Assembly: GCA_008477525.1 (NCBI GenBank)
Contig: SPDT01000014.1
Coordinates: forward strand, 81,292-145,291
Length of the DNA: 64,000 nucleotides
Source: Hypomyces perniciosus
Lineage: Eukaryota; Ascomycota; Sordariomycetes; Hypocreales; Hypocreaceae
Reading direction: 5' to 3'
This document shows, one piece after another, positions 4,991 to 58,189 of this stretch (position 1 is its first letter; each line of letters opens with the position of its first letter). A program made the translations under genes and the position numbers. Below the pieces are notes generated by a model that searched no databases, was not told where the DNA came from, and was given only the letters and a program-made list of their open reading frames with translations.

Positions 4991-5071
4991 AGAACTGGTT
5001 GATATAATCAATTTCAACCTTATTCAAGCCTAAAGCCTGGTTAGCATAGATAGTAATGCAATTGTTTTGTA
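4991..5071 (+). pseudogene. partial trnT (5' half plus its upstream flank)
   Basis: GCCTGGTTAGCATAG... at 5035-5071 repeats the 5' half of trnT up to TTTTGTA in the anticodon loop, then stops matching. The repeat also takes in ~45 bases upstream (AACTGGTTGATATAATCAA compared with 5132 on), giving an imperfect tandem copy of 5136-5210. Confidence 0.75.
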
Positions 5072-5181
5072 CTCAAAGAAGCAATAAGTAAACTTTTAGT
5101 GCATGCATGCTACGCAGCAGCACATAAAAGAGTGAACAGGTCTGGTTTATATAACCAACTTCAGTCTTATTTTGAGCTAAA

Positions 5182-5254
5182 GCTCGGTTAGCATAGTTAG
5201 TCAATGCAATTGTTTTGTAACCAATTGACGGGAGTGCGAATCTCCCACTGGGCT
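5182..5254 (+). tRNA. trnT: tRNA-Thr (TGT)
   Basis: Acceptor GCTCGGT/ACTGGGC, D arm GCAT...ATGC, anticodon loop TTTGTAA with TGT, T arm GGGAG-TGCGAAT-CTCCC. 73 nt. First gene of the usual post-rnl tRNA cluster. Confidence 0.88.
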
Positions 5255-5304
5255 ATTTTATTGAGTAGATATTACTATATAAAACTATAAGAGTAAGAGA
5301 TCTT

Positions 5305-5605
5305 ATTCAAGTGGATATTGCTAAACTATTAAGTGAACCTTCAAATTACGAAATTAAGGACTAGCATAGCTTGCGCTACAAGGTATGCGCACAGAATTTT
5401 TATAAAATCTTTAAATAGATTTAAAGGTTCACCTACTTCCAAAATGGTTCAATTATTAGATGCTACTAGTGAAGATATTATGAATACATTTACTTCTATA
5501 GCTGAAAGTGCCAAATTTTTAGGTGGACTTCCTCAGACTACTCGAATTAGAGTACAAAAAAATACTCGTTTTTTATTTAGACCCCCTGCGGGTGAGGTAA
5601 ATTAG
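5305..5605 (+). pseudogene. C-terminal remnant of a LAGLIDADG/NUMOD1 endonuclease
   Basis: Translates in two frames to a tail (AKLLSEPSNYEIKD, then RIFIKSLNRF, then FTSIAESAKFLGG) that parallels the tail of the intact HE at 6689-8104 (MKLLKGPSNYEM, RIFIKSLNKY, FDSMNKCAEFLGV). A GC cluster at 5363-5391 (core TAGCTTGCGCTACAAGGTA) breaks the frame. Only the end of the gene remains, directly downstream of trnT. Confidence 0.75.
5363..5391 (+). repeat. GC cluster shared with the atp9 flanks
   Basis: The reverse complement of this sequence is found at 25412-25439 and again at 25952-25979, on both sides of atp9. Confidence 0.8.
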
Positions 5606-6014: not shown

Positions 6015-6053
6015 AGGGTTATAGCTTAATCGGTAAAGCATGCTGCTCATAAC
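6015..6053 (+). pseudogene. 5' half of a split trnM
   Basis: AGGGTTATAGCTTAATCGG... forms acceptor 5' strand, D arm, anticodon 5' stem and loop CTCATAA (anticodon CAT), then stops being tRNA at 6053. The matching 3' half (acceptor TAGCCCT) lies at 8262-8294, about 2.2 kb downstream. Confidence 0.75.
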
Positions 6054-6688
6054 CTCTCGGCCCAGGATTAGATCCTTGGGCCTAGGCCGAAGGGCAGTAA
6101 AAATAAATCCTTTTGCAAGAAAGAATAGAATTAGTACCCCCTGCGGGTCGCTTGCGCAGGGAAATTCCATTTTTGTCTTTGGTTAGATATATTATGTCTA
6201 AATTTTATTAATAATAAACCCTATTAATATTACTTTACTCACATGAACAGTTAGACATGATAGTAAAGATAAATCAATTTTCGATAGTTATCGATTTTGG
6301 TGTATCTTTTAACAACCAAAAGACGGAAGGACTGCGTGAACCACCTTGGCTTAAGTTAATCAGAAAGTAAAGGAGGAAGTAAAGCTCTATAGAGCTAAAT
6401 GGAATGTATAGCGCACACATATATCTAGTAAGATTCTTATAAAGAAAAATCTTCAGCTGGAACCTAATCAGCTTTAACCTTGGGAAGGTACTCAATGGTG
6501 AAGAGGGCAGAACTGTGTGACCTTTATTTCGAATTATATAATATATTAATGGAAATAATAAGTATAATAGAAAAAAGGGATGCAGGAATAAGCCCTTACA
6601 AAGTATAGCGGTGTGAGCCCTTGCATGAGTAAGGTTATACGACAAGTAAGTTACATAGCGAGTGAACAACGCAAAATAGAATATATAA
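6054..6688 (+). other. spacer and structured leader of the trnM insert
   Basis: No gene. It holds a GC hairpin (GGCCCAGG... CCTTGGGCC, 6059-6082), a CCCCCTGCGGGT cluster near 6137, and a 400-base stretch with GGAAGGACTGCG at ~6325 and GAGTGAACAACGC at ~6660, just before the HE start. Similar strings precede the HE genes at 8882 and 15780. Confidence 0.45.
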
Positions 6689-8104
6689 ATGAAAATGAAA
6701 ACAAACTTTAAAAATAGTCAATTATTATTAAAACGTTATAGCTTATGAGCTTTTAACCTGTTATGTAGCTCAGGTATAGCATTACATAAAAATAGATTTA
6801 TTCATTCAACTCCTTCTAGTAGAACTATAGATAATTCTAATTCACAATTTATTATTTCTGAAGAACAACAAATTGTTTTATCTGGTGATTTTATAGAATG
6901 ATTTAGAGGTTTCACAGATGCCGAAGGCTGCTTCTTGGTAGTTAAAAATGATAATACTTTCGCTTTTAGATTTATAATAAAATTACACGTTGATGATGTA
7001 AACGCACTAAATTTTATTAAAGACTCTTTAGGAGGTATAGGAAATGTAACCACTGAGGGAACAGTAGCTTACTATAAAGTAACATCTCAAAAGGGAATAA
7101 AATTAATTATAGAAATTTTTGCTAAATATCCTTTAAACTCAAGCAAACATCTAGATTACTTAGCTTTCCGTAGAGCTTATGAGCTTTATACTTCATCTAA
7201 GAATAAAACTCCAGAACTAGCTAAAGAAATAAGTAAGTTTAAAGATAGTATGAACAGAAAGAGAACTAATTTTGATATGGAAAAATCACACAAAATACTT
7301 ATAACAGACAACTGGTTACTTGGTTTCGTGGAAGGAGATGGTAGTTTTTGTGTAGCTAAAAAGGGTTGAATTTTAACTTTTGCTCTTGGACAGAAAGGGA
7401 ACTTAGGTTTAATAGAGGCAATTCAAAATTATTTACTTAATTTGTGTGTGCTACGCACGCGTGTCTCTAATAAAAATTCTTCAACAACTGATCCTACAGA
7501 AATTCAAGATGAAAGCAGAAATTTTATTTACATTACAAAATCTAGCAGAAATACCTCATCCGAGTTAATTTACGTTTTAATTGTTAAAGACAAGGAATAT
7601 ATAGAAAATACACTTATTCCATATTTTGACTCTCTTATTTTTCATTCTAAAAAAGAATTAGATTATTTAGATTGAAAATCTATAGGAGAACTAAAGAAAT
7701 TTGGGTTACATTATCTTCCAGAAGGGGTTGAACTAATAGAACTTATTTTAAGTCAAATGAATGAAAATAGATTATCTGATAGAGGTGTTAATCCTGTAGA
7801 AAGAAACTTTATTCAATCAGAAGTAATGAAATTATTAAAAGGACCCTCTAACTACGAAATGAGAGAAGGTAGAATCTTTATTAAGTCGTTAAATAAATAC
7901 CACTCTGGTAGAACAAAAACTAAAGTAGAACTTAAAGATCAACAAGACTTAGTTTTTAAAACTTTTGATTCTATGAATAAATGTGCTGAATTCTTAGGAG
8001 TTAGTACACACACAGTTTCCAAGAGAATGAAAACTAATTCACCTATTAGTTATAACAATAAAGAATATTTCATTTATGCTAGCTTACTTAACACAAAATC
8101 TTAA
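6689..8104 (+). CDS. free-standing LAGLIDADG endonuclease with NUMOD1-like tail
   Basis: ATG at 6689, TAA at 8102-8104, 471 aa with TGA as Trp; every in-frame break seen with the standard code is a TGA. The N-terminus (MKMKTNFKNSQ...) is basic and serine-rich. Motif 1, WFRGFTDAEGCF, is near residue 71 and motif 2, WLLGFVEGDGSF, near residue 208, with the usual acidic residues. A GC cluster (GTGTGCTACGCACGC, ~7443) is carried in frame. The C-terminus has a NUMOD1-like helix-turn-helix (SMNKCAEFLGVSTHTVSK). It lies between the two halves of a split trnM and is followed 60 bases later by a complete trnM. It is the best-preserved HE of the tRNA cluster and probably cuts the trnM anticodon region (inference). 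Confidence 0.85.
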
Positions 8105-8163
8105 TTTAATATCTTATAATTATAATAATATATGTTATTTGTTTGTATTAAACACAAATAAAA

Positions 8164-8236
8164 GAGGCTGTAACTTAGCTGGTAAAGTGCGCTGCTCATA
8201 ACAGTGCTATCAAGTGTTCGAATCACTTCAGCCTTA
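8164..8236 (+). tRNA. trnM: tRNA-Met (CAT), complete copy inside the insert
   Basis: Acceptor GAGGCTG/CAGCCTT, anticodon arm CGCTG-CTCATAA-CAGTG, T arm AAGTG-TTCGAAT-CACTT. Complete and flanked on both sides by halves of another trnM. Confidence 0.85.
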
Positions 8237-8261
8237 AATAATAACTTTTTATTACAAATGT

Positions 8262-8294
8262 AGGGGAATAAGTGTTCAAGTCACTTTAGCCCTA
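8262..8294 (+). pseudogene. 3' half of the split trnM
   Basis: T arm AAGTG-TTCAAGT-CACTT followed by acceptor strand TAGCCCT and A. The acceptor strand pairs fully with AGGGTTA at 6015-6021 (one G-T), not with the neighbouring complete trnM. Confidence 0.75.
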
Positions 8295-8300: not shown

Positions 8301-8330
8301 CTGAGTGCTGGAATAGGTAGACAGTGGTCA
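8301..8330 (+). pseudogene. D-arm fragment of a tRNA-Leu
   Basis: GAGTGCTGGAATAGGTAGAC resembles the D-arm region of the trnL at 10208 (AATGCTGGAATTGGTAGAC). No anticodon or T arm follows before the next trnL starts. Confidence 0.5.
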
Positions 8331-8489: not shown

Positions 8490-8548
8490 CTTCTAACGAA
8501 GCACAAGGTGTTCGAGTCACTCCATAATCCCCGCTAGGGGGATACGCG
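8490..8548 (+). pseudogene. tRNA 3'-like fragment and GC hairpin
   Basis: AGGTGTTCGAGTCACTCC looks like a T arm with acceptor strand, as in trnQ. It is followed by the GC cluster AATCCCCGCTAGGGGGATAC, which also follows the pseudo-trnQ at ~16495. Confidence 0.45.
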
Positions 8549-8637: not shown

Positions 8638-8675
8638 GCTCGTGAAGCTCAATTGGTCGAGCAGAACGTTGAAGT
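8638..8675 (+). pseudogene. 5' half of a split trnF
   Basis: GCTCGTG acceptor strand, D arm, anticodon 5' stem GAACG and loop TTGAAGT (anticodon GAA). The 3' stem is missing because tRNA sequence ends at the anticodon loop. Confidence 0.75.
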
Positions 8676-8881
8676 TGGATCTTATAGTGAACTAAAATAG
8701 TTCAATTTAAATCCATAATTAATGAAGGTCAGATAACTCTATTATACCAAATTAAGGATTAAATGAAGACCCAAAGGACTGCAATCTATAATTTATAAAG
8801 AGAGCTTCGTATTGGTTTTTAACACCATGGCTCATAAATTCGAAAGAGTGAACAAGGGCATAACTTTTTAAACTTTAAACA
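8676..8881 (+). other. leader of the trnF insert
   Basis: Non-coding. Contains CCAAAGGACTGC (~8771-8782) and AGAGTGAACAAGGGC (~8852), the two strings shared with the leaders at ~6325/6660 and ~15690/15703. The HE starts about 20 bases after the second string. Confidence 0.45.
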
Positions 8882-9733
8882 ATGAAAAACACAATGAATA
8901 ATAACATAGTTCCCATAAAAACATATTCTAATGCAGAAAGGGACAAGTTTATTCTTTATAAGGATAATAATAATAAATCAGGTATATACCGTTGAAATAA
9001 TTTAATTACAAATAAAAGTTATATAGGTTCAGCTAAATCAATTAGAGGTAGATTTAGCATTTATTATTCTACAAATTCTGTTCAGCGTAAACTAGCAGAA
9101 GGATCTAGTGCTATTTACAGTGCCATACTAAAATACGGCTATGGAAATTTTAGTATAGATATTCTAGAATATTGTGATATAAGTACCTTAATAGAAAGAG
9201 AGCAATATTATATTGATTTATTGGAACCTGAGTATAATATATTAAAAATAGCTTATTCTCTACTCCCTAGCTTGCGCATGGGAGACGAAGGGGCTAAACA
9301 TACTGAAATTACCAAATCATGTATAGGGTTAAAGTCTCTGGGACGTAAACATACAGAAGAGGCTAAATTAAAGATGAGGGAAATAGCTGTATTACGTAAA
9401 GGTGAAGAAACTTCTTTTTATGGTAAAAATCATTCTCCTGAAAGCCTGTTAAAAATGTCAATGAATAGATCTATTCAAGTGAAAGTTCTAGACACAGTAT
9501 TAAATGAGGAGACAGTATTTTTAGGTAATAAAGAAGCCGCCGAATTTTTAAATGTAGGATTATCTACATTAGTTAGATATAAAAAATTAAATAAATTAAT
9601 GAAAGAAAGATACCTAGTATCTAACATAAGCTCATGTAACTCAATTGGTAGAGTGAAATATTGAAGCTATTTTTGTTGTAAGTTCAAGTCTTACCGTGGG
9701 CATAAAAAATATTTAAAGAAAAAAGTGGTCTAA
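8882..9733 (+). CDS. free-standing GIY-YIG endonuclease overlapping trnF
   Basis: ATG at 8882 (a second in-frame ATG at 8894), TAA at 9731-9733, 283 aa in code 4. The GIY-YIG domain starts at SGIYRW (near residue 37) with SYIGSA ~12 residues later and conserved EREQYYID downstream. NUMOD3-like repeats (GRKHTEEAK, GKNHSPESLLKMS) and a NUMOD1-like helix-turn-helix (NKEAAEFLNVGLSTLV) follow. A 35-base GC cluster at 9255-9289 is inserted in frame and codes for [11 protein letters not shown]. The ORF runs through the whole of trnF (9630-9702) in the same direction, so its last ~35 codons are tRNA sequence. Whether translation extends that far is unknown. Confidence 0.78.
9255..9289 (+). repeat. 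35-base palindromic GC cluster, in-frame in the GIY-YIG gene
   Basis: Core CTCCCTAGCTTGCGCATGGG can fold (CTCCC with GGGAG). The same 35 bases occur at 18174-18208 inside an unrelated LAGLIDADG gene. Confidence 0.85.
9630..9702 (+). tRNA. trnF: tRNA-Phe (GAA), complete copy inside the insert
   Basis: Acceptor GCTCATG/CGTGGGC, anticodon arm AAATA-TTGAAGC-TATTT, T arm GTAAG-TTCAAGT-CTTAC. 73 nt, nested in the 3' end of the GIY-YIG ORF. Confidence 0.85.
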
Positions 9734-9772
9734 ATAATTATAGTATATAGAATTAAGAGATTTGAACGACTA

Positions 9773-9796
9773 AGTTGTAAGTTCAAGTCTTACCGT
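9773..9796 (+). pseudogene. 3' remnant of the split trnF
   Basis: GTAAG-TTCAAGT-CTTAC-CGT repeats the T arm of trnF. The acceptor strand is then lost in a GC hairpin (ATCCCTGC...GCAGGGAT). Confidence 0.7.
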
Positions 9797-9822
9797 ATCC
9801 CTGCTTTGCAGGGATTAGGGCA

Positions 9823-9993: not shown

Positions 9994-10025
9994 AGGGTAA
10001 TGATGGAATTGGCAGACATAAATAG
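9994..10025 (+). pseudogene. 5' half of a split trnL
   Basis: AGGGTAA acceptor strand, class II D arm (ATG-GAATTGGCAGA-CAT) and anticodon 5' stem AATAG. The strands that pair with these (CTATT and TTACCTT) are found 5.4 kb downstream at 15442-15486. Confidence 0.65.
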
Positions 10026-10096
10026 TTTTTACTGGAGCATTTACTGGATCAATTAGTAGTAATGGTAGTATAATTTTTATTATTACTTTACTATTT

Positions 10097-10168
10097 AAGG
10101 GTTTAGTGTAATGGGCATCACATCTTATTCGTGATAAGGAAATACGAGTTCAAGTCTCGTAGCCCTTA
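10097..10168 (+). tRNA. tRNA of uncertain identity (anticodon reads CGT)
   Basis: Good cloverleaf: acceptor AAGGGTT/AGCCCTT, D stem GTG/CAC, anticodon arm TCTTA-TTCGTGA-TAAGG, T arm ACGAG-TTCAAGT-CTCGT. By position in the loop the anticodon is CGT (Thr codon ACG), which I do not know from fungal mitochondria. It has no place in the standard cluster order, so it may be an acquired or mutated gene. Confidence 0.65.
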
Positions 10169-10207
10169 TGATAATAAAATCCTTTGAAATTATTTCATTG
10201 AACCGGA

Positions 10208-10289
10208 ATTCGAATGCTGGAATTGGTAGACAGGGTAAGATAAGAATTTATTGGTTAATACCGTAAAGGTTCAAGTCCTTTTTCGAATA
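10208..10289 (+). tRNA. trnL: tRNA-Leu, anticodon reads AAG
   Basis: Acceptor ATTCGAA/TTCGAAT, class II D arm, long variable arm, T arm AAAGG-TTCAAGT-CCTTT. The anticodon arm GTAAG-ATAAGAA-TTTAT gives AAG, whereas fungal mitochondrial CUN readers normally carry TAG. The location between K and Q is the one expected for trnL(TAG). Confidence 0.75.
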
Positions 10290-10485
10290 TATATAGAGTA
10301 AGTAATTAGTTGACTCTTTTTTTTAATTTATAAATTAAAGTATGAAAAATGTATGATATTATTTATTAATATGTTATTATAAATTAACATATTTTTTAAT
10401 AAAAATTTATTGAAATCCCGACAAGTTTATACTTAATCTTAATTTATTATTATATATAATAACCATGTTATTATATATATTTTGA

Positions 10486-10855
10486 ATGTTAAGTGAATTC
10501 AACATAATATATGTAAGTTCTGAAACTATAGATTATATTGATGAATTAGACTTTTCTACTACAGAGAATACAGAAGTACTTGAAATAAAAGTAAAGTATA
10601 ATAAAAACACTAATAACATCACAATTAAAGTTCTAAATCTATTTAGTAGTAATGATACAACATATAATTTTATAGCCAATAAAAACACTTTTTGTGCGCA
10701 AGCGATAAAATAATAAGTTGTTAGATTATGTTAAATTTAGTGTGCCTCCAGAGGTTAGAGATAAATTTGTAGGTATTTACTTGCAGTATTTGTATTACTA
10801 GCTATTATTATAATAGCGGTAAGTTTCTATCTCTTTAGCTTGCTATTTCTAAGAG
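10486..10855 (+). pseudogene. hypothetical ORF with broken membrane-helix tail
   Basis: ATG at 10486 opens 75 codons rich in Asn, Thr and Ile (VSSETIDYIDELDF...), ended by a GC cluster (TGTGCGCAAGCGATAA, ~10694). After the cluster, coding-like text continues in shifted frames (LLDYVKFSVPPEVRDKF, then a hydrophobic segment VLLAIIIIAVSFYLFSLLFL stopping near 10860). This suggests one small single-pass membrane protein gene broken by the cluster. No family recognised. Confidence 0.4.
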
Positions 10856-10893
10856 ATTAGGGAAAGCGGAAGGCTCTACTGAAGCCCCTTCGC

Positions 10894-11337
10894 TTGTTCC
10901 CTTTTTTTATTTTATTTATTTTAAAAATGTCTTGTTTCTATTTCATGCGCAAGCTAGAGAAAAAACCAAATTATGTAAACATAACTCCGTTAGTCTTACA
11001 AGAAAGAAATATTCTTTCTTTAATAATAAATATAGAAGATCAATATCTAAGTTCTTCAGCTAAATTTGTATATTTTATACAAAAACAATTAGAAGAGGTT
11101 TATCATGTTGTCATAAGTAGAGCAAAATTTGATGATATGCTGACTAGTTCTAATTTATTAGTACTTTGTTGTACTAATGAAACGAAAAATTATGATAATT
11201 ACTGCTTACTTAGATGTCAAGGTCCTCTTTTAACCTTTTATTCTGAACTACAACTATTGAAAAATTATTCTAAATTTGTAGAATCTAAAGAAATGATAGT
11301 TTGAATAAGTTTATGTACAAATAGATATATCAGCTAA
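10894..11337 (+). CDS. hypothetical protein
   Basis: Open from ATG at 10894 to TAA at 11335-11337 with one TGA as Trp, about 147 aa. A GC cluster (CATGCGCAAGCTAG, ~10945) lies in frame near the start, so the original N-terminus is uncertain. Content is mixed hydrophobic and polar (ERNILSLIINIEDQYLSSS). No motif recognised. It lies inside the insert that splits trnL. Confidence 0.4.
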
Positions 11338-11649
11338 ATTATATTTAAATGTTAATTAAAAGCTTAATATTTTTATAGTATTATATTATAATTTATAATA
11401 CTGTAAAGGAGAATAGTATAATAATAATATAATTAATGTATACGTTAATAGATTTGGATGGAAGTTCCAATTTTCCTACCTAGAGTGTATGGCTCTTTTT
11501 AAAATTAAATATAAGCAACAATATGATGATGATGAAAAATAATAAACTGAGGAAATTATAATTTTCAAGTTAATAATTCAGATATACTTTTTTTATTAAC
11601 AATAAATAATAATTCAAAAAATAAAGATTTAACTAACCTTACAGCAAAA
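11338..11649 (+). other. AT-rich spacer
   Basis: No gene recognised. The following ORF is open in frame back to about 11545, so part of this may be its coding 5' end. Confidence 0.35.
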
Positions 11650-12126
11650 ATGGTAGTTTTAAATAATTTAGTAGAGAATGACCTATTAAATATGGCTAAG
11701 TTATTGAATTTTATGAATATAGATACTTTATTTATATTCTCCATTGTAGCGGATGAATCACTAGGAATAAATATTATAGAGCTAGAGCATCCGTCTAAAA
11801 TTAAATATATTGAAGTAGGGTTGAAATTTTTTATAAAAAACTATTTAGAAAATCCTAACAATGCATATTTCTGAGAACATAATAAAAACACGTTATATAT
11901 TATGAGAGATAGTAATTATTCAGATATAAAAGGAATATTTACTACGATCCAAAATACTAAAGTAAATATAGTAAGAGGTAGTAGTCAAAAGTCACATATG
12001 ATTAGTCCTATTGATTTTAGACTTTCTTGTTATTTAATGGTGCTTTTTAATATGGATTTTAAAAGATTTAATTGTGAAAATTCTTTCAATGTTATTAGTA
12101 AAGATAGATATTTACCCTCTTCATAG
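11650..12126 (+). CDS. hypothetical protein
   Basis: ATG at 11650 to TAG at 12124-12126, 158 aa with one TGA as Trp. The frame is open further upstream (NSDILFLLTINNNS...) without an earlier ATG that I can defend. There are no membrane segments or known motif. It is AT-rich in codon use like the neighbours. Confidence 0.4.
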
Positions 12127-12176
12127 TAATTCTATTGTGACTTTTAATCATTAGCCTTGTGATTATTTAATCACAA

Positions 12177-12257
12177 ATAGGTGTGTTGGAATGGGAGACA
12201 AACTCCGCTCAGAACGGAGGGGCTTAGGCCGTGCAAGTTCAAGTCTTGCCACCTATA
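12177..12257 (+). tRNA. trnL: tRNA-Leu (CAG), unusual
   Basis: Acceptor ATAGGTG/CACCTAT, anticodon arm CTCCG-CTCAGAA-CGGAG with perfect pairing, variable arm GGGCTTAGGCC, T arm GCAAG-TTCAAGT-CTTGC. Well folded and GC-richer than the others. Anticodon CAG (codon CUG) is not part of the normal fungal mitochondrial set. It lies inside the insert that splits another trnL. Confidence 0.75.
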
Positions 12258-12323
12258 ATCTTAGAACAATTTTTGGTTCTTTTTTGTTATTGCATAGCAA
12301 GCGATAAAATATAAAAAATAAAT

Positions 12324-13305
12324 ATGAAAAATATAAAATGATATAATTTAGTGCTACGCACAAAATGGTTATATTGTAGAAGATAATATTATAATAAGAC
12401 CTTTATTAAATAAAGCTGCTATATATGTATATAAATTTTCTTTAAATGGTAATGAGAAGCTTTATATAGGTTCTACTGTAAACCTTGTACAGCGTTTTAG
12501 ACAACATAAATACAGAGCTGAGCTTTATTTTAGTGGCAAGAAAGAGATAAAATACAGAAGTATATTATACAACTATGTAGCTAAATATGGTTGAGAAAAT
12601 TTTACATTTGGTGTTATTCAATATATAGATTTCGAATTATATCTTGAGTGACAAGCTAAAAAAGAAATATTGTTAAAAACTGAACAAAGTTATTTAGATG
12701 AGTTGTCTCCTGAATTAAATATAAATAAAACAGCGGGATCTATGCTTGGGTTTAAACATAACAAAGAAGAAATTCTAGAGCTAGGGTTGGCACGTAGAGG
12801 TAAAACATATAAAAGAAGTAAAGTATTTATTTCTTTAAAACCAGCTATAAGTAAAGAAACTATTCTAAAGCTAAAGTTACATAATAAAGATATAACTGTT
12901 AGTATATATGATAAAGAATATAAATTGGTTAAAGAATTTAATAGAATAAGAGCAGCTGCGGAATTTGTCGGTTTATCTCCTAGTAGTATTAGTGGTTACA
13001 TTAAAAATGGTAAATTGTGAAATGATCTTTATTATTTTAAATTAAAAGTAAATACAGTGTTAAATAAAGATTCATTAGATTTTCCTTTAGATAATGATGT
13101 AATTAAAAAATATAATAATAAGAAGAATAAACATGGTAATTCTTATGCATTAGAGGTTTATTGCGAAGATAAGATTGTTTATCAGTTTAGTAGTATAAGA
13201 GAAGGATCTCTATTTTTAAATATAAGTAAATATACGATAACTAAGTATTCTATTGGAGATATGTTATGAAAAAATAAATATAGATTTAAATTAATACTAA
13301 TATAA
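12324..13305 (+). pseudogene. GIY-YIG endonuclease with NUMOD1 repeats, N-terminal frameshift
   Basis: ATG at 12324 (MKNIKWYNL) runs into a GTGCTACGCAC cluster at ~12352 that shifts the frame. The remaining frame is open to TAA at 13303-13305. The GIY-YIG domain has AAIYVYKF as a divergent first motif and LYIGSTVNLVQRF as the second. Two NUMOD1-like helix-turn-helix segments follow (FNRIRAAAEFVGLSPSSIS and FSSIREGSLFLNISKYTI). Except for the cluster the gene is intact, so the loss may be recent. It starts ~70 bases after trnL(CAG). Confidence 0.7.
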
Positions 13306-13713
13306 AAGTCTATAACAACTACTACTGTTTATTTAATTAAGTTTTTATCTCCATAATTTATATTATGAAAGGTGGGATTAAGAAATATTATTTATAAATA
13401 AAATTAGAGATTAAATCCTTATTAGTAGGCACTGCCTACTAAAAAGAATTGTATTAATTATTTTTTAACTATGTTTAATGATCTTATAGTTAAGAAAGAT
13501 GGTGTAAATCCATCCAATTTTAATATAGGTTAGTATATATAATAGAGAGAGAGAGTACCCAAAAAAGACTCTATTACTAATATATTAGTAAAGATCGCTA
13601 AGATATGCCTTGAATCAAGCTTTGATCACTCAGATCTTCGGAAGCTCAGAGTATAACAGAGATGACCTATGTTCCGTCTAGAAACTAGTCTAGTTAACAA
13701 TTTTAATTTAAAT
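13306..13713 (+). other. spacer with possible structured RNA
   Basis: No gene. A T-arm-like hairpin (GATGG-TGTAAAT-CCATC, ~13499), a GA-rich run (~13544), and several short inverted repeats close to 13600-13690 (for example GATCACTCAGATC, GTCTAGAAACTAG). Possibly another leader, identity unknown. Confidence 0.3.
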
Positions 13714-13786
13714 ATGAAAAAAATATACAGAGTTTTTTCAACTTCACTTCCCTATTTTGTAAACAATTTATTTGTGACTATGAATA

Positions 13787-15295
13787 ATGATTTTGTGCGC
13801 AAGCGATAAATATTTTCATCTAAGTAATATTAGATATTATTCTTTAATTTCACTTCCTGTGTTAGAAGACAAAATTGAATTAATTTCTAATATTAATTCT
13901 CAATATTTTGAAAGAGAATTAAAAGATTTATTGTTACCTTGTCTTAACGATGGTTATACTTATAGATTACAATTTTATATGTTAAATGATAAAGGTAATT
14001 GAACTAAAAGACGTACAGATTTTTTTAATAAATGATTAGCACCTGATTTAGATTTATATATTACAGATGTTTCAAGTACATTACATTTAAATGTAATAGA
14101 TTCTGTAGATAGTGAATTTATTAAAATAAAATTTGAGAAATTAGATACTTCTGGTGTTAAATTAAACCATTTTGATTTTATTAATGGTTTAGTTAAATCT
14201 TGTAACAAAGGTTATGATAAAAAGTATTATAAAAAGAAAAGTAAATCTAGATTTTATTTTTATACACTTTATTTACTTAATTCTTTACATAATAATGTTA
14301 GATATTTTTCATCTGTACGTGCGTTAAATAGTAAGAATGAAAGACATATTTATCATGAACCTTCATCTACATATGAAGAAAATGGTATTACATATGGTAG
14401 AAATTTTGGTAAATGAAAATGTTTGAATTGTAAAAAAAGTTGAAGTAGTGCTTATACTTGAATATCTTTAGAATTCTGTTTTAGTAATAAAGAGATATTT
14501 AAAGATAAAAAAGATAAATTATGATTTTCTGGTATTAAACTTGAAGATAAAGATTTTTTAATAGAAAAATGTAAAGACTGTAGTGGTAGTAGTAATAGTA
14601 ATGTTAAAGTAACTAGTTATAATAATTTAATATATAGTGGTATAAATAATGAAATACCTCATCGTAGTGATTTATGTGCTAAATGTTTAAAAGGATCTCC
14701 TTGTCAAGATAAAAAATATTATTCTACATTATCTAATTTTAGTACAAGTAATGGTATAACTTCTAAACGTTTTTATTCTTCTGTAGCCGGAGGCACGCGC
14801 AGCAAGAAGAATATTAATTCAAATTATTCATTAGAATTTATTGATGATAAATTATCTGTATGATTATCTAGTCTTACTAACAAAGATCAGTTTTCCTTGG
14901 ATTTAAATGGTTTATTAGATCAATTTAGTTTAGATAACAACTATTTTTATAGATTAGAGTTTTCTTTATTTCTACATACAGATGATTCAACTAAAGAAGT
15001 AGTTTTTATTCTACACCCAGGAGATGTAAAAGATAATATTTCAATACAAGAAGTAATAGGTATGAAAATGCTATATGATATGTTTAAATATAAAGGCTTC
15101 TATATATTTCACTCTGAATTATTAGATATACAACAAGTTAAAGATTTTAATGCTTATATTAACTTAATTTATAATATATTAGGTGAATGTATTATATCTA
15201 CTAATGAAGATCTAAGTAAAGATGGGTTTATTGAATTTAAATTACCTTGTTTACTTAATGTTACAAGAATTAATAAGTCTAATAGTAGTGGCTAG
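13787..15295 (+). CDS. mitochondrial ORF with a 3CxxC-type zinc-finger signature
   Basis: Open for 502 codons in code 4 (ATG 13787, TAG 15293-15295). An earlier ATG at 13714 gives 27 related codons (MKKIYRVFSTSLPYFV...) but is cut off by a GTGCGCAAGCGATAA cluster, so the original start was probably 13714 and the ATG at 13787 is created partly by the cluster. Centre of interest: KWKCLNCKKSWSSAYTW (C212, C215, W219, W225), KCKDC (C262, C265), LCAKCLKGSPC (C297, C300, C306). The spacing CxxC-x3-W, CxxC, CxxC-x5-C follows the zf-3CxxC family (nuclear RTP/ZAR1-like and fungal proteins), which I do not know from mitochondrial genomes. A second in-frame cluster codes for GGTRSKK (~14791). N- and C-terminal parts are unrecognised. 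Function unknown; zinc binding is inferred. Confidence 0.65.
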
Positions 15296-15441
15296 CTCTA
15301 TACCCCTGCGCAAGCTAGGGTACCCCATATCTTCGATTAGGGGTCAGCATAGCACAAAAAGAATTCTTTTAATACTTAAAAATTAGTCGCTTGCGCACAA
15401 ATATTTTGTAAATACAAAGTGGACTTAGTGGGCTCTGCCCA

Positions 15442-15486
15442 CTATTGGATAGTAATATCTTACCCGTTCAAGTCGGGTTTACCTTA
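15442..15486 (+). pseudogene. 3' half of the split trnL
   Basis: Anticodon 3' stem CTATT, variable arm GATA-GTAA-TATC, T arm ACCCG-TTCAAGT-CGGGT, acceptor strand TTACCTT and A. It pairs with the half at 9994-10025. Just upstream are CTTAG (possible loop with anticodon TAG) and a GTGGGCTCTGCCCAC cluster. Confidence 0.65.
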
Positions 15487-16328: not shown

Positions 16329-16401
16329 TATGCTGTTGACTAATAGGTAAGTCATAAATTTTTGGTATTTACTATTGAGTGTTCGAATCACTCCAGCATA
16401 A
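16329..16401 (+). tRNA. trnQ: tRNA-Gln (TTG)
   Basis: Acceptor TATGCTG/CAGCATA, anticodon arm TAAAT-TTTTGGT-ATTTA, T arm GAGTG-TTCGAAT-CACTC. 73 nt. Confidence 0.87.
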
Positions 16402-16432: not shown

Positions 16433-16494
16433 TAAGCGACTGATAGGTAAGTCATAAATTTTTGGTATTTACTATAGAGTGTTCGAATCACTCC
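16433..16494 (+). pseudogene. second, incomplete trnQ
   Basis: Repeats trnQ from the D arm through the T arm with few changes (AGTCATAAATTTTTGGTATT) but lacks a matching acceptor stem, and runs into the cluster TAATCCCCGCTAGGGGGATA. Confidence 0.75.
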
Positions 16495-16728: not shown

Positions 16729-19700
16729 ATGATAATAATATCTATTTTATCTCTTTTACTTTCTAACGCCGTCAATGTAAGACGTGATATATCAATTCTA
16801 TATAATAGAATTGCGATATTAATATTAATTTATTGTATTTTAAACGATATATCCTCTTTAACTGTAGTAACTAAAGGTATAGGTCTACATGGAGGTTTAT
16901 TGTTAATTACAAATATTACACAAATATTCCATATTTTCTTATTTATAGTGAGTATATTAATATTAACATTAACTAGTTTCTATCCTAGAAAAGTGTGAGT
17001 ATCAGAATATTCATCTTTAAAAGATTTAGTGTTATATAAATTTGTATATTATAATACTAAAATTATAAATAAAATGGGTGAACAATTTAAAATAATAGAA
17101 TACCCTGAACAACAGCTTGGGAGGCTGTAGTATTTATGGGGGAAAACTGCCAAATTCCGGGGAAGCCCTAAAGCTTTTGATACCAAATCTGGTTGAATTT
17201 TACCGTGGTGGATGAATTAATTACTCATGTATGGTAACAAGTCAAAAGATTCTTGAAAAAGGAATGGGTAATCGCGGATCTAAGTCAAATATAGGTAACA
17301 CTTTATTTGTAAAAGAGCAACGAGTAGACGGTAGTTGCATAGGGTGAACAACTCGTCCTATGTTAAGGTATACTCTTAGAGGGTTCGAAAGAATTACCTG
17401 AGCTGGAATCCCTTCTAACCAAATTCTAAATAAACAACTATATTCAACAACTAAAGTTTCAAAAAATCTTATTGAATCTGAATTATATACTAATAACGAA
17501 GATAGTTTTAGTTTAAACCCTTGATTTGTAACTGGGTTTACAGATGGAGATGGTTCATTTTCTGTTTCTATTGCTAAAAAAAAATCAGGTACAGGGTGAA
17601 AGATTCAACCTGTGTTTACTATAGGGTTAGATTCAAAAGATTTAGATATTTTAGTTCAAATTAAAACTTTTTTTAAAGCAGGTAAAATCTATACTAGTAA
17701 AAGAGGTATAATTTATTATACTGTAGGTTCAACAAAAGATATAATAAAATATATCCTACCTCATTTTGACAAGTATCCTTTATTTTCTCTTAAATTAAAA
17801 GATTATTTAGTGTTTAAAGAGATAGTTCTTCTTATGGAAAAGGGGGAACATAATACCCTACCTGGTCTATTAAAAATCTTCTCTTTAAGAGCTATTTTAA
17901 ACAAAGGACTACCGGAGATAGTAAAAACTGAATTTCCGGATATAAATCCTGCTACTGTACCAGAGTTTAAGATATCCCCTATCTTAAATCCTCATTGGTT
18001 ATCAGGATTTATAACTGCAGAAGGGTCTTTCTTTATTTCTCTCTATCCTAATGAGGAAAGAAAAGCCGGATATGCAGTAAGTCTAATATTTAGTTTAAGT
18101 CAACACATTAAAGATCTAGAATTACTAGAATTAATTGTTAAATACTTGGCATGTGGTACAGTTAGAAAACCTAATTCTCTACTCCCTAGCTTGCGCATGG
18201 GAGACGAATCAGCTGAATTAGTTATCACTAAATCAGCGGACATTAACCTAAAATTAATTCCTTTCTTATCTAAATATACTCTTTCTGGGGTAAAGTTATT
18301 AGACTTCGAAAGATTTAAAAAAGCATCTCTTTTAATAGAAAATAAAGTGCACTTAACTTCAGAGGGAATTGTATTAATAAAAGCTATTAAAGATGCAATG
18401 TATAATAGAGAATTGTAAGGTTAATTTTACTAACCCCCATAACTTCGTAAGGGGGTACGATTTAGTTAAATTAAAGGTTATAATTTAAAGTTGTAATCTT
18501 AAGTTAAAAGTTAATTATTTAGAATTTGTATGATAAATCCAGTTACCACGTTAATATTATTATTTATAATTACAGGTGCTATATTCTTAATGTCAACTAA
18601 CGATTTAGTTTCTATTTTCCTTGCTATAGAATTACAAAGTTATGGTTTATACATACTAAGTACTATATATAGAAATTCAGAATTATCAACTACAGGTGGA
18701 TTAATGTACTTCTTATTAGGGGGATTAAGTTCTTGTTTTATTTTATTAGGTACAGGTTTAATATACGCTAACTCAGGAAGTACTAGTCTAGATGGTTTAT
18801 ACATTATAACTAGTATAAGCGATATAAGTTCTGTAGATTTATGATACAAACCTTATTACATAAATCTTTCTTTAGTAATATTTACTATAGGATTCTTATT
18901 TAAAGTAAGTGCAGCGCCTTTCCATTTCTGATCACCTAAAAAAGGACTTGGGAAATCCTTTACCGTTGGGTGTAAACTATCAAATTCCGGAAAACCCCTA
19001 GAACTTCAAGTACCAAGCTATATTCGAAAGGATATAAGTGGATGAACTAATCACTCATGTATGGTAACAAGCTTGAAGGCTTCTGAAAGGAACGTGGGCA
19101 ATCGCGGATCTAAGTCAGTAATATGTGAAAGTATTACTGTAAAAGAGCAACGAGTAAACGGTAGTTGATGTGGTATTAATTTACCACATTTAAGATGTAC
19201 TCTAATGGGTTTCGAAAGAAATTATCAAGTTAAAATCCCTTCTAATCAAATTATTCAAAGACAACTTTATTCTACTGTATCTAACTTGGACAATACTGCT
19301 AGTAAACTTCCTCAAGTAAATGAACCTTGATTTATATCAGGATTTTATGATGCTGAAGGATGCTTTCTTGTTATAGTCCGTAAATCACCAAAAAGCAAAC
19401 TAGGTTGACAAATAGAGGCTAATTTTACAATTAATCTTCATATTAGAGATCTAAATCTTTTAAAACTTATTCAAACTTACTTTGGGGTAGGAAGAATAGG
19501 TAAAGAAAGAAATGGTTGTTGTGATTTTACAGTAGGTTCTCTAGATCAAATAATAACAAAAGTAATACCTCATTTTGATAAATATCCCTTAAAAACTAAG
19601 AAATATTCTGATTATCTATTATTTAAAGAAGTAGTTATGATGATGCAACGTGGGGAACATTTAACAGCTGAAGGTTTACAAAAAATAATAAATATTAGAG

Positions 19701-22700
19701 CTTCTCTTAATAGAGGATTAACTCCTTTACTACTAGAAGCCTTTCCTAGTACTGTTGCTTTAGCAAGACCATTATTACCACTTAATAATACTAAATTAGT
19801 GCTACGCACTCAATGGGTAGCTGGTTTTACAAGTGGTGATGGTTGTTTTAAAGTTAGTATTAGAGAATCTAAATTATATAAAACAGGAAGTCGTGTAGCA
19901 TTGCTTTTTGTAGTAACTCAACATATTAGAGATGAATTACTATTGAAAAGTTTAGTAGATTTCTTTGGATGTGGTCAAACTTATTCTTATAAGGATTATA
20001 TTGAGTTTAGATGTCAATCATTCAAAGATAATTATGAAAAGATTTTACCTTTTTTCTATAAATACCCTATTATTGGTGTGAAATCACAGGATTTCGAAGA
20101 TTGAGCTAAAGTGGCGGAAATGATACAAACAAAAGTTCATTTAACTAACGAAGGTTTTGATCAGATTCGTCAAATAAGAGCGGTAATGAATAAAGGTAGA
20201 TATCTAGAATAAACTACACATAGACTTTTATATTATTTAGTATAAATATATGAGATTATGTATTTATATTGAAGATTTAGATAGTATATATTTATTAAAT
20301 ACTTTTGTATAAAGTTGTTCTTTTCTTTAATTTGGACGATAAATTTAACCGTCGTGGACGTTTATGATGCTATACCTACTATAGTAACTACTTTTGTAGC
20401 TCTTATAGCTAAAATTTCTATATTTATCTTATTATTACAATTAGTATATTACACTAACAATAGCTTCTCTGAAATGAGCTGAACATTTATACTATTACTA
20501 AGTTCTTTATTCTCACTAATAATAGGTACAGTAGTAGGTTTAACTCAATTTAGAATAAAAAGATTATTTGCTTATAGTACTATTGTGCGCCGTTGCGCTT
20601 TATTTATTCATGGAATCAAAGATTCTATGCAGTGTTCATATCTGCATCCGGCATCGGAGTTAGGTGGAGGGGAAAGCCCAACATTGAACTTAGCATCTCC
20701 GCTAAAAAGATTCATTAAGTTAATCCAGACATACTGATTAGGAATCTGAGCCGCGTTTTCTATGATTAAGACTATACTGTCTGAAGTCTATCTGCAAGGA
20801 TCCCCAACTATAGGGAACTGTCAAATCTGGTATAGGGCAGAAGGGTTAAATGGAATTTTGAAATGGTGAATTCCATTATGAACTAACCTCTTCCTGGGTA
20901 TAATCAATACTTTCAAAGCAGAGAGTGGACAATCTAAGGAAAACTTAGGGATAAATTTAAGAACTACGGGATTGCCTAAGGTCAGAAATGACTATGGTAA
21001 CAGAGGAATCATAGTACCTTTGGGAGTCTTAAGACTCACAAGTATCGTACCGAAAGGTGCAGTAGCATTGGGAAGGATTCCAGGTCAATGAAATTATAAC
21101 TACTCTAATACCGCTGGGGATTCCAGTACAGTTAAATCTGACGCTATCAGAAAGTTATTATGATTAGGGGAAAAATGTAAAGAGAACAAAAATTATGAGG
21201 CTAGAGATATATACAACATAATGTATATGTCAAAACTATATGAAATGGCATACAACAATCTAAAGAGTAACCCGGGAAATATGACTCCGGGTATAACTCC
21301 TACAACTCTAGATGGATTTTCAGCGGAGGTTATAAAAGAGATCATCAATAGTTTGAAAGATGGTTCATTCCAATTTAAACCAGGTAGAAGAGTAATGATC
21401 CCTAAAGACTCCGGTGGAGAAAGACCCTTAACAGTCGCACCTCCCAGAGATAAAATAGTTCAAGAGGTCATGAGAATGATTCTTGAGGTTATTTTTGAAC
21501 CGGGATTTTCACCGAACAGTCATGGATTCAGAACAGGTAAGAGCTGTCATACAGCACTTAAACAAATATTCACATCCTTTGGTATGGCCACTTGATACAT
21601 TGAGGGTGATATCTCTAAATGTTTTGACTCTTTCGACCACGAAATTTTAATAAAAATAATTAGAACTAGAGTGAAAGACGAAAGATTCATCAGACTTATC
21701 ATTAAAGCTCTTAAGGCCGGTTATTTTGAATTTAAAGAGTTCAAACACTCCATTATTGGAACTCCACAAGGTTCTATAATTAGTCCTATTCTATGTAATA
21801 TTTACATGAATGAATTCGACAAATTCATGGAGGAATTGGCCAACTCTTTCTCCAAAGGGACAAAAGCCAGAGGGAACCCAATTTGAATTAGCTATAATAA
21901 CAAGAAAAGAAGATCAACTTCAATCGTGGAGAAGATCAAATGACATAAACTTATGTTAAATGTCCCTTCCAAAGACCCTATGGATCCAAACTTCAAGAAA
22001 TTAGTATATGTAAGATATGCAGATGACTGATTGGTAGGAGTCAGAGGCTCTCGGGAGGACTGTACATTGCTACTAGAGAAAATCAAATTATTCCTAAAGG
22101 AAGAATTAAAATTGAACCTTAGCGAGAAGAAAACTCTAATAACCAATGCTAACAAAGGGAAAGCGCTATTCTTGGGAACTAATATATATAGATCCCGTCA
22201 CCAACTATTCAGTAGATCCGCCGGATTCACTAAAAGAGTAGGAAGAGAAATTAGACTAGAAGCTCCCCTAGAAAGAGCAATTAAGAAGTTGAGAAGCGCG
22301 AAATTCCTTGAAGGGGATATTCCTTCTCCTAGATTCCTATGAATGCACAATTCAAAGGACCAGATTATAGCCCTTTATAACTCTGTGTATAGAGGTTATA
22401 TAAACTACTACAGCTTTGCAGGTAATCTAGGAACATTTAGTGGATATATTCACATGGTGCTAAAATCATCATGTGCCAAACTTCTTGCGGCCAAGTTTAA
22501 CCAAAATTCTCAAAGAAAAATATTTGAATTATATGGTAAAGACTTACTGGGTAAAGACAAGATAGCCTTTGTAAACCCTTTATTCAGAAATAACCCATGA
22601 GATTTTAAAACACCCGCCGAGGTGAGATCTAATGATCAAATCACGGATAACGGTATTCTAAAATCCCTATATGCCGAAAGTCTATCTGTAGCATCTCTTG

Positions 22701-23666
22701 AAGGCTTATCCTGTGTAGTTTGTAGCTCAAACCATAGAGTGGAGATGCACCACGTCAGACATCTTAAAGACTTGAATCCAAATTTAAGTAAAATAGATGC
22801 CTTGATGGCGAAGAGACGTAGAAAACAGATTGCATTATGTAGAAGCTGTCATATGGAGCATCATTCTTCAAAAACTCTCAAACAATAATTCCCCTCCTTA
22901 ATTGACTGGAGAGCCGTATGACGGGAAACTGTCACGTACGGTTCGGGAAAGGGGGGTGCATCCTGGTAAAAGGGACCACCTTCTAGTTCATTCTCACGTA
23001 GGATTTATGCTTTTAGCTTTAGGTATATCAAGTATAGAGTCTACTCAAGCACTTATATTCTACTTAACTCAATATATTATAAGTAATTTAAATGCCTTTA
23101 TGATATTAATAGCTATAGGTTTCTCATTATACTATTATACAAGTGAAAACAAAGAACATGAAGAATTAATGGATAAAAATAATTCTCCAATACAACTAGT
23201 AAATCAATTGAAAGGTTATTTCCATATAAATCCTTTATTAGCCTTGAGTTTAGCTATAACTATATTTTCATTTGCAGGTATACCTCCTTTAATAGGATTC
23301 TTCGGAAAACAGATGGTATTAAGTGCTGCTTTAGATAAAGGTCTTGTATTCTTATCTTTAATAGCTATATTAACTAGTGTTATCGGTGGAGTTTACTATC
23401 TAGGTATAATAAAAGAAATGTTCTTTAGTTTACCTGATTATAAAGTTAACACTTTACTAGAAAATTTAATATTAAAAGGTAATGTATTGAATAATAATAA
23501 AACAGTAATCAAAAATATAAACTTTAAATATAATAATATAGTTATATCAAGCCCTATTGCTTTTGTTATATCTAATATAACACTTATAATTTTATTATTT
23601 ATATTTATGAATAAAGAATGGCTAAGCATGGGTACCATATTGGTACAAATCTTATTTAATTGTTAA
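16729..23666 (+). CDS. nad2: NADH dehydrogenase subunit 2, four exons
   Basis: Proton-pumping membrane subunit of complex I. Exons 16729-17106, 18551-18937, 20357-20584 and 22992-23666 join without frame error to 555 codons plus stop, close to the family length. Conserved text: [20 protein letters not shown] at the start, [38 protein letters not shown] across the second joint, and [20 protein letters not shown] near the end. Two joints follow the group I rule (T before, G at the intron end); the third is group II (GTGCG...AT). The stop TAA is directly followed by the nad3 ATG, so the two are probably co-transcribed. A repeat of this gene is on copies 2 and 3 of the window. Confidence 0.93.
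17231..18418 (+). CDS. LAGLIDADG endonuclease of nad2 intron 1
   Basis: ATG 17231 to TAA 18416-18418, 395 aa with TGA as Trp. The N-terminal ~70 codons overlap the intron core. Motif 1, [11 protein letters not shown], is near residue 101 and motif 2, [12 protein letters not shown], near 258. A stop (TAG 17128-17130) separates it from the exon frame, so it needs its own start. The in-frame 35-base GC cluster (18174-18208) adds [11 protein letters not shown] in the second domain, possibly impairing it. Probable role: intron homing, perhaps maturase. Confidence 0.82.
18174..18208 (+). repeat. 35-base palindromic GC cluster, second copy
   Basis: Identical to 9255-9289 and carried in frame. Confidence 0.85.
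18938..20356 (+). mobile_element. nad2 intron 2, group I
   Basis: Starts after CCT of the SP codons and ends in GTG before GACGTTTATGATGC. Core strings CAAATTCCGGAAAACCCC, AATCGCGGATCTAAGTC and GAGCAACGAGTAAACGG are close to those of intron 1. Confidence 0.87.
19061..20212 (+). CDS. LAGLIDADG endonuclease of nad2 intron 2
   Basis: 383 aa from the first intron ATG. The frame is open right from the end of exon 2 (18938), so translation as an exon fusion with later processing is possible. Motif 1, [11 protein letters not shown], is near 19336 and motif 2, [11 protein letters not shown], near 19820, with acidic residues present. A GTGCTACGCAC cluster at ~19800 is in frame just before motif 2 ([10 protein letters not shown]). 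Otherwise intact. Confidence 0.85.
20585..22888 (+). CDS. group II intron reverse transcriptase/maturase with HNH domain
   Basis: The frame is open from the first base of the intron, continuous with nad2 exon 3, for 767 codons (TGA = Trp) to TAA 22886-22888. It is therefore likely made as an exon fusion and then processed, as for yeast cox1 aI1/aI2. An internal ATG at 21221 would give ~555 aa. RT blocks: [15 protein letters not shown] (~21598), [20 protein letters not shown] (~21759), YVRYADDWLVGV (~22006; YADD catalytic site). The maturase domain X follows ([17 protein letters not shown]). The C-terminal HNH has [14 protein letters not shown] and CRSCHMEHH, with zinc-binding pairs and His-Asn-His residues visible. 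All elements for splicing and retrohoming appear present. Confidence 0.9.
22911..22946 (+). other. group II intron domain V
   Basis: GAGCCGTATGACGGGAAACT and CACGTACGGTTCGG form the 34-base hairpin with GAAA loop and AC bulge typical of domain V. Confidence 0.92.
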
Positions 23667-25369: not shown

Positions 25370-25395
25370 GGCTTTTAGGGTCTTATATTGTGCTT

Positions 25396-25512
25396 GCTTT
25401 TTTTTTTTCCATGCGCATACCTTGTAGCGCAAGCTATGCTATGCTATGCTATGCTATGCTAGGTACAGAAGCAAAGCAAGCAAGCCAGCAAGCAAGCAAG
25501 CTTGCATGCAAA
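25396..25512 (+). repeat. pentamer/tetramer tandem repeats and GC cluster upstream of atp9
   Basis: GC cluster at 25412-25439, then TGCTA repeated about five times (25435-25461), then AAGC/AGCA tetramers to GCTTGCATGC. Typical slippage-prone intergenic sequence. Confidence 0.8.
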
Positions 25513-25517
25513 TAAAA

Positions 25518-25590
25518 TTTTCTATTTATTTTGTGAAATTGACATTTCTAATATTAAAAAGTACAACAATTTACGAGATTTTTATTTTTA
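25518..25590 (+). repeat. atp9 leader segment, copy also at 1373-1447
   Basis: Lies 18 bases upstream of the atp9 ATG. Nearly identical to the sequence before the HE pseudogene at 1464. Confidence 0.82.
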
Positions 25591-25601
25591 ACATTTTATA
25601 A

Positions 25602-25832
<231 letters not shown>

Positions 25833-26041
25833 TTAGATTTCTTAAATTTAAGAAAACTTTTTATTACAAAATATATAATTATTATATAAACATATGTATT
25901 TATATAATGGTCGTGGTGGGTGGGTTATTAGAATAGACTAAAAAAAATTCGTGCGCATACCTTGTAGCGCAAGCTATGCTATAAAAAAATTAAAAAAAAA
26001 CAATTCTATTTATAATCAGAAATTTTATATTATAATTTTTC
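25833..26041 (+). other. atp9-cox2 spacer
   Basis: AT-rich, no gene. Contains GGTCGTGGTGGGTGGGTTA (~25908) and a GC cluster copy at 25952-25979. Confidence 0.6.
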
Positions 26042-29871: not shown

Positions 29872-29923
29872 TTTATAACAAATTATTATTAGTAAGAACA
29901 TATTTATTCATTTAGTGGATAAA

Positions 29924-29996
29924 AGAGGTATTAGTTTAATGGTAAAACTTGATGCTACGGACATCACAATTGTAGTTCGAATCTATAATGCCTCTA
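29924..29996 (+). tRNA. trnR: tRNA-Arg (ACG)
   Basis: Acceptor AGAGGTA/TGCCTCT, anticodon arm TGATG-CTACGGA-CATCA. Typical position between cox2 and nad4L. Confidence 0.88.
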
Positions 29997-30118
29997 GTAT
30001 AGTCATTTATATAGTAACTGTACTAGTATACGTAAAAAAACACATATTTAAAATTAAATTTAAATGTACGTATATAATCATAATTCTGAATAATTCGATG
30101 TATATATTAGATTAAAAT

Positions 30119-49800: not shown

Positions 49801-49820
49801 GATGAATTAATTACTCATGT

Positions 49821-51007: not shown

Positions 51008-51139
51008 GGTTAATTTTACTAACCCCCATAACTTCGTAAGGGGGTACGATTTAGTTAAATTAAAGGTTATAATTTAAAGTTGTAATCTTAAGTTAAAAGT
51101 TAATTATTTAGAATTTGTATGATAAATCCAGTTACCACG

Positions 51140-57957: not shown

Positions 57958-58189
57958 GGCTTTTAGGGTCTTATATTGTGCTTGCTTTTTTTTTTTTCCA
58001 TGCGCATACCTTGTAGCGCAAGCTATGCTATGCTATGCTATGCTATGCTAGGTACAGAAGCAAAGCAAGCAAGCCAGCAAGCAAGCAAGCTTGCATGCAA
58101 ATAAAATTTTCTATTTATTTTGTGAAATTGACATTTCTAATATTAAAAAGTACAACAATTTACGAGATTTTATTTTTAACATTTTATAA

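Follow-up and report, generated by a model that had tools for sequence, protein, structure and literature searches.

Can a homing element break an essential tRNA gene and bring the replacement itself? The question is raised by trnM in the mitochondrial tRNA cluster of Hypomyces perniciosus, which is split in its anticodon arm by an insert that holds an endonuclease gene and a complete trnM. The window, the whole 64,000-nt stretch that was analysed (C17:81292-145291 of a 44-Mb assembly), is fungal mitochondrial DNA read with genetic code 4, and its atp6 is 93-94% identical to the atp6 genes of Drechmeria, Ophiocordyceps sobolifera, and Pleurocordyceps. The parts of trnM, trnF, trnL(UAG), trnT, and trnQ described here, with their inserts and ORFs, lie on the + strand, and positions are those of the window unless a contig or locus is named. 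The complete tRNA genes after rnl follow the order T E M M L A F K L Q H M, which is the order reported for Hypocreales in the available part of an earlier study (PMC4964425). Since the complete genes alone already give this order, the split halves are surplus to it. ARAGORN reports a normal tRNA beside the endonuclease ORF in the window and passes over the halves.

The resident trnM consists of a 5' half (6015-6053, tRNA positions 1-39) and a 3' half (8262-8294, tRNA position 40 to the end), separated by an insert of 2208 nt (6054-8261). Here and below, break positions are in canonical tRNA numbering as assigned by us. The 5' half matches the complete trnM within the insert at 28 of 39 positions, and the 3' half (8270-8294) matches it at 21 of 25; the best values in 40 random Markov-1 sequences of 17 kb were 23 and 18, respectively. 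The 3' half also resembles tRNA-Thr(CGT) (79% over 33, E 0.022, compared with E 0.003 to trnM). Similarity alone is thus not specific, and the assignment to trnM is based on acceptor pairing and on the T-stem, which has the same sequence as in trnM. The acceptor strands of the two halves pair at 7/7 positions, and on the + strand of the 64 kb, 8270 is the only place where a T-arm (5 bp, TT-loop) leads into an acceptor strand that fits 6015-6021. At acceptor pairs 2-71 and 7-66, both sides differ from the embedded trnM in a compensatory manner, and chimeric pairings between a half and the embedded trnM break one pair in each case. Both halves therefore come from one gene that is distinct from the embedded copy, contradicting an origin from different tRNA genes, which the preliminary description had named as one refuting case.

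When joined, the trnM halves are called tRNA-Met(CAT) by ARAGORN and form a tRNA of 72 nt with 20/21 stem pairs (acceptor 7/7, D 4/4, anticodon 4/5, T 5/5). The idea that the halves had lost their anticodon stem was dropped, since starting the 3' half at 8262 gives back 4/5 of its pairs. ARAGORN calls on joined sequences were discarded as a test of significance because they are too lenient: joining the 5' half to 33-nt segments gave a spanning call in 36 of 16,959 joins, most of them at tRNA 3' halves or remnants but some at two other sites (3543 and 11450), and the 3' half gave 22 in the same number of joins. A contiguous degenerate tRNA at 6015-6084 is rejected: read straight through, this stretch scores 20.6 bits (below the cut-off of 29), has 2/5 anticodon-stem pairs and no TTC loop, and receives no ARAGORN call.

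Between the halves, the preliminary description had placed a structured leader, an intact LAGLIDADG/NUMOD1 endonuclease gene, and a complete trnM, and these hold up with the exception of NUMOD1, for which the protein has only a sub-threshold match (13.6 bits, cut-off 22.8). The leader (6054-6688) folds better than 20/20 shuffles (z -4.5) and has no Rfam family above its own cut-off. It is followed by an ORF of 471 aa (6689-8104) that is open under code 4 and contains two LAGLIDADG_1 stretches (Pfam, E 2e-31), and then by the complete embedded trnM(CAT) (8164-8236), with 21/21 stem pairs. I-PanMI (E 2e-25) and an I-OnuI variant (E 3e-19) rank high among the solved structures that resemble the protein. 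In an alignment of 25 sequences (the query and 24 picked from the 120 relatives listed), residue E79 is invariant and D217 nearly invariant; we take these two motif residues to be catalytic. With two motifs, conserved acidic residues, and structural homology, the protein is predicted to be an I-OnuI-like LAGLIDADG endonuclease. Among the matches listed, the top relative is 77% identical, and the closest named relatives are from Hypomyces aurantius (73%) and Fusarium (57-59%). The latter include a 536-aa protein of F. oxysporum (P0012, 57% identical), which we infer to be orf536. Relatives of this element are known as proteins only.

The region is present in three copies in the assembly: in the window, near 8-18 kb of the same contig (C17), and near 8-18 kb at the start of contig C8. 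The trnM insert occupies 3/3 of these copies, and its endonuclease frame is full-length in two (the window and C8) and broken in the third (C17:12412-13823). This broken stretch differs from the window by gaps only, as sequencing error would give. An uninterrupted trnM was not found in searches of the same genome with both flanks, in which only the best candidates are scored and which matched only the mitochondrial stretches of C8 and C17. At the start of contig C8 (4.19 Mb), about 50 kb or more are near-identical mtDNA (C8:1-52000), either inserted at a chromosome end or misassembled. Within the window, 16171-49142 is a 33-kb palindrome with arms of about 16 kb that are 99.5% alike, and 49766-64000 is a third, direct copy of 17178-31369 (99.0%); together these represent a linear concatemer or else an artefact of assembly.

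The adjoining trnF is split likewise, and its halves enclose a GIY-YIG gene together with a complete trnF. Its 5' half (8638-8675, positions 1-38) is followed by an insert of 1091 nt (8676-9766, ends from the best-fitting cloverleaf) that contains a GIY-YIG/NUMOD3 homing endonuclease ORF (8882-9733, identified by profiles and homology to relatives) and a complete embedded trnF(GAA) (9630-9702). The 3' half (9767-9822) is interrupted by 21 nt (9797-9817) holding a perfect GC-rich hairpin. Over its first 37 positions, the 5' half has 28 matches (best random 24), and the 3' half contains a 23/23 stretch identical to the embedded trnF. With the 21-nt stretch skipped, the joined halves pair, stem by stem, at 7/7, 4/4, 3/5, and 5/5 and receive no ARAGORN call. 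For the trnF leader, folding is not stronger than in shuffled sequences (z -1.3). Homology of the ORF to relatives of 236-243 aa stops near 9625, directly 5' of the embedded trnF; at 9626-9733 the ORF, without the stop of its relatives, runs through this tRNA gene. A short in-frame insertion at 9250-9290 (read by eye) is absent from the relatives P0122-P0127.

For a third gene, trnL(UAG), both occupied and empty sites are available. Its 5' part (9994-10028) and 3' part (15442-15486) agree with the intact trnL of locus L009 at 35/35 and 45/45 positions, and the insert between them (10029-15441, 5413 nt) occurs once in the assembly. The other two copies of the region have an intact trnL(UAG) and no insert, giving one occupied and two empty sites with 80/80 identical flank bases and 4 nt of the anticodon loop missing from the occupied one. 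The comparison with an uninterrupted gene that the preliminary description had proposed for trnM is thus available for trnL(UAG), but not for trnM, which is occupied in all three copies. The insert contains tRNA-Thr(CGT) (10096-10169), tRNA-Leu(AAG) (10208-10289), which is the candidate replacement, and tRNA-Leu(CAG) (12177-12257, by ARAGORN only). It further contains a GIY-YIG/NUMOD1 reading frame (12409-13305; first listed start codon 12670) and a 507-aa ORF with a match to Zn_ribbon_3CxxC (13772-15295). In the former, NUMOD1 scores above its cut-off, GIY-YIG reaches 22.3 bits against a cut-off of 22.6, and the frame, which lacks a standard start, is 28% identical to a GIY-YIG relative (E 1.7e-11). 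The joined trnL(UAG) parts are not called by ARAGORN.

The trnL insert could have arisen as a chimera during assembly or through integration of a mitochondrial plasmid, and would then have no relation to the elements in trnM and trnF. Its single occurrence in the assembly, on a contig with large inverted and direct mtDNA repeats, is in keeping with this, as is our impression that its ORFs and tRNAs look foreign. However, its flanks are identical to the intact copies, the break lies in the anticodon loop near the breaks of trnM and trnF, and two Leu tRNAs are nested within it. For this one case, we regard a chimera or plasmid as unlikely.

The three genes share a pattern. All of the two-sided splits (3/3) hold a complete isotype-matched tRNA, their 5' parts stop at tRNA positions 39 (M), 38 (F), and 34 (L), and their 3' halves begin at positions 40, 39, and 39, respectively. 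Joining across the insert gives a tRNA of 72 nt for M, and in L the 4 nt are missing. Endonuclease sequences of two families (LAGLIDADG and GIY-YIG) are found in the inserts, and the matches that the inserts share with one another are short (best 43 nt, E 0.003). The embedded trnM and trnF each stand as a complete gene of their own, with no in-phase fusion to the host gene. Judged from these sequences, homing-endonuclease elements have probably hit the anticodon arm of tRNA genes and brought isotype-matched tRNA genes with them. The reading offered in the preliminary description for trnM is thereby strengthened in its observable part, since the resident gene is split, with a matching tRNA and an endonuclease gene inside, and trnF and trnL(UAG) show this arrangement as well; cleavage of trnM by this enzyme and movement of the insert would be the steps that make it homing.

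In such a mechanism, the encoded endonuclease would cut the resident tRNA gene in the anticodon arm, and repair from element-bearing mtDNA would put in the element. The putative element, as seen in the DNA, comprises a leader, an endonuclease gene, and a complete tRNA of the same isotype, placed at or just before the 38/39/40 junction. The split resident gene would then be dead and the embedded copy would take over decoding, as suggested by its perfect cloverleaf and by the fact that the complete tRNAs alone form the canonical rnl-nad2 cluster of Hypocreales; insertion would thus be tolerated. Repeated rounds would swap the tRNA genes of the cluster singly, leaving 5' parts and dead endonuclease genes behind.

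Several observations count against homing. The twelve bases GCTGCTCATAAC are common to the embedded trnM and the resident gene, the presumed target, at the break, so that the embedded copy would need some way to escape cleavage, and the acceptor stems of the trnM halves are still intact, unlike what long decay would leave. The break in one copy of the LAGLIDADG frame is a further point. The trnF halves fit one gene less well, with 3/5 anticodon pairs and a 3' stretch equal to the embedded copy. At trnL, the nested Leu tRNAs have the anticodons AAG and CAG while the resident has UAG, and the GIY-YIG frame is without a standard start and scores slightly below the Pfam cut-off. Finally, trnT has a 5' remnant (5034-5076, 86% over 44) upstream of the complete trnT(UGU) (5181-5255), and the C-terminal remnant of a LAGLIDADG endonuclease gene (5296-5578) lies between trnT and trnE. 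This dead remnant is 3' of the complete tRNA, an order unlike that of M, F, and L.

Partial tRNA copies extend beyond the three split genes. Among the 24 distinct complete tRNA genes of C17:1-81291 (28 calls, with four repeats), five (Thr, Met, Phe, Gln, and Ile) have nearby, same-strand, isotype-matched partial copies at E 0.011 or lower, and Leu(UAG) is a sixth via the copy in the window. This count leaves out far or other-strand matches of Arg, Leu, Lys, Ser, Trp, and Gln (E 0.005-0.034). In the cases of Thr and Ile, the partial copy found is a 5' part alone. The trnI 5' part (84% over 32) lies about 400 nt upstream of the complete trnI (L036:6836-7341, equal to C17:74835-75340), and the two are likely a decayed element. 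An acceptor-less second copy of trnQ (16438-16494, 96% over 57) follows the complete trnQ (16329-16401). A trnL-like 5' fragment at 8303-8324 (91% over 22 to the trnL(AAG) at 10208) lies directly 5' of the complete trnL(UAA), and a T-arm-like tRNA remnant at 8508-8524 (94% over 17 to trnQ) lies between trnL(UAA) and trnA. The cluster also contains perfect short GC-rich hairpins (6139-6161, 9797-9815, 13424-13440, and 15426-15444), one of them within the trnF 3' half and one spanning the 3' junction of the trnL insert; these are possibly mobile palindromes.

The tRNA genes could also have been duplicated and truncated by ordinary mtDNA recombination, with the endonuclease genes entering the cluster independently and not causing the splits. 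This would fit the abundance of tRNA fragments and duplicates in the cluster (T, Q, I, and L), and tRNAs have been proposed as recombination sites for the Fusarium LV regions in the accessible part of a recent paper (PMC11633160). What such recombination does not readily give is a complete copy nested within the halves in 3/3 two-sided cases, halves that are complementary and non-overlapping with neighbouring breakpoints, and a clean presence/absence pair at trnL. We consider it distinctly unlikely as the cause of the splits.

Another alternative is that the inserts are introns of tRNA genes, the halves being spliced together and the embedded tRNA being a passenger. The edge of the anticodon loop, where the inserts sit, is the usual place of tRNA introns, and the joined trnM halves have 20/21 pairs and receive a tRNA-Met call. 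Group I introns have a U before and a G as the last base, and group II introns have the ends GUGYG...AY. Canonical ends of either kind are found in 0/3 inserts (base before, insert ends, and base after: M, C, CTCTC...GT, A; F, T, TGGAT...AA, C, less certain; L, T, TTACT...CA, C). Nor does any of the M, F, and L inserts match a group I or II intron of Rfam at E values as high as 1, whereas introns of both groups in other parts of the window do score, at 64-91 bits. Group I/II identity was rejected on this missing core and the ends, both sequence grounds. Splicing would further yield an F with 3/5 anticodon pairs and an L without 4 loop nt, including two anticodon bases. Tremella insertions in tRNA genes have been named introns in the part of the report at hand (PMC7315562), but with neither an intron family match nor canonical ends in the three inserts, introns are very unlikely here.

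How far does this design differ from known systems? The papers compared were available in part, and statements on them refer to those parts. Mobile ORF elements with foreign C-termini have been described in atp6 of Allomyces and in atp6, atp9, cox2, and nad3 of Glomus (PMC3630166). Like these, the inserts put a LAGLIDADG or GIY-YIG gene into a mitochondrial gene that is essential, accompanied by a putative substitute for what is cut off, and a native remnant stays downstream. In Allomyces and Glomus a fusion completes the host gene, whereas here a whole separate RNA gene is present and both old halves remain. On this analogy, the inserts are best read as the tRNA counterpart of elements that replace gene C-termini. 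In the basidiomycete Tremella fuciformis, optional insertions in mitochondrial tRNA genes (trnL-i1, trnI-i1, and trnP-i1, one with a GIY-YIG) are known from isolates with and without them (PMC7315562). Unlike the inserts here, they are described as introns, and the available sections do not mention an embedded complete tRNA.

The closest setting is that of the F. oxysporum LV regions, which lie between rnl and nad2 (PMC5604515, PMC11633160). Strains Fon015 and Fon019, with LV variants 1 and 2, have the same sequence in the conserved part of their mtDNA (PMC5604515). In LV variant 3, trnT and trnE are separated by a LAGLIDADG gene; three strains have a second trnQ, and one has a 3CxxC ORF (PMC5604515). 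The window has a LAGLIDADG remnant at the same place, an extra trnL(aag), a second trnQ, and a zf-3CxxC ORF, all with counterparts in the LV regions. The GIY-YIGs between trnL(tag) and trnQ of F. oxysporum have a rough counterpart in the one inside the split trnL. No counterpart was found in the window for trnG(acc), for the LAGLIDADG that sits between trnL(taa) and trnF in the LV regions, or for the majority of the remaining LV ORFs. Sequence homology was compared for the trnM endonuclease only, and the rest by description. Since several LV features, though not all, have counterparts in the window, we propose that related elements may act in both. Split tRNA halves are not described for the Fusarium LV regions in the accessible text of these papers (PMC5604515, PMC11633160). 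The tRNA genes of the LV variants were found to have no mutual homology by BLAST, and their origin was left open in 2017 (PMC5604515); a 2024 paper doubts endonuclease integration as the cause of the LV regions (PMC11633160).

The preliminary description knew of no precedent for this design in tRNA genes. That statement has to be narrowed, since insertions in tRNA genes (Tremella, PMC7315562) and endonuclease genes between tRNAs (F. oxysporum) are on record. As for the exact design, we found no account of homing elements that interrupt a tRNA gene and supply a full copy of it in the portions of the open-access literature covered, which mostly excludes subscription papers, and nothing closer in the available parts of PMC6221350, PMC6506933, PMC10085805, and PMC7263005. 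Eight mitochondrial-looking loci of a viral collection (L013, L014, and L042-L047, with L013 and L042 on one contig), chosen from 26 found in two scans of viral contigs (three in one and 23 in the other), were compared with the tRNAs of the fungus; no isotype-matched halves around an endonuclease relative were evident, and matches to tRNA fragments were weak (E 0.002-0.007). Of the 26, coverage of L015, L048, and L051 was limited to a tRNA scan. Two further scans of viral contigs gave no relative, and another gave five contigs whose tRNAs lie in phage-like clusters. A scan of genome contigs gave ten loci, bacterial and archaeal according to their titles. In L042:10051-10170 there are four repeats resembling tRNA 5' parts at a spacing of 33 nt. 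Phages and integrative elements insert in tRNA genes, which serve as integrase attachment sites, and restore the 3' end. The elements proposed here would resemble them in entering a tRNA gene without loss of its function and differ from them in that phages and integrative elements restore the tRNA end only.

Since a tRNA gene is short, essential, and conserved, DNA inserted into its anticodon arm would be expected to be lethal or to need splicing. By carrying a whole substitute tRNA, selfish DNA could invade such essential genes without host death, and tRNA genes would become targets of homing. Whether tRNA-replacing homing elements form a general class in Hypocreales mitochondria, with at least two endonuclease families that target anticodon arms, is in our judgment evenly balanced. 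If they do, the tRNA set of an organelle could be exchanged gene by gene, possibly between species, and the Fusarium LV variants would be explained, in which anticodons and a similar order are kept while detectable homology is lost. The design of these elements would offer an explanation that can be put to the test, both for the turnover of tRNA genes and for why tRNA regions vary in the mitochondria of Fusarium.
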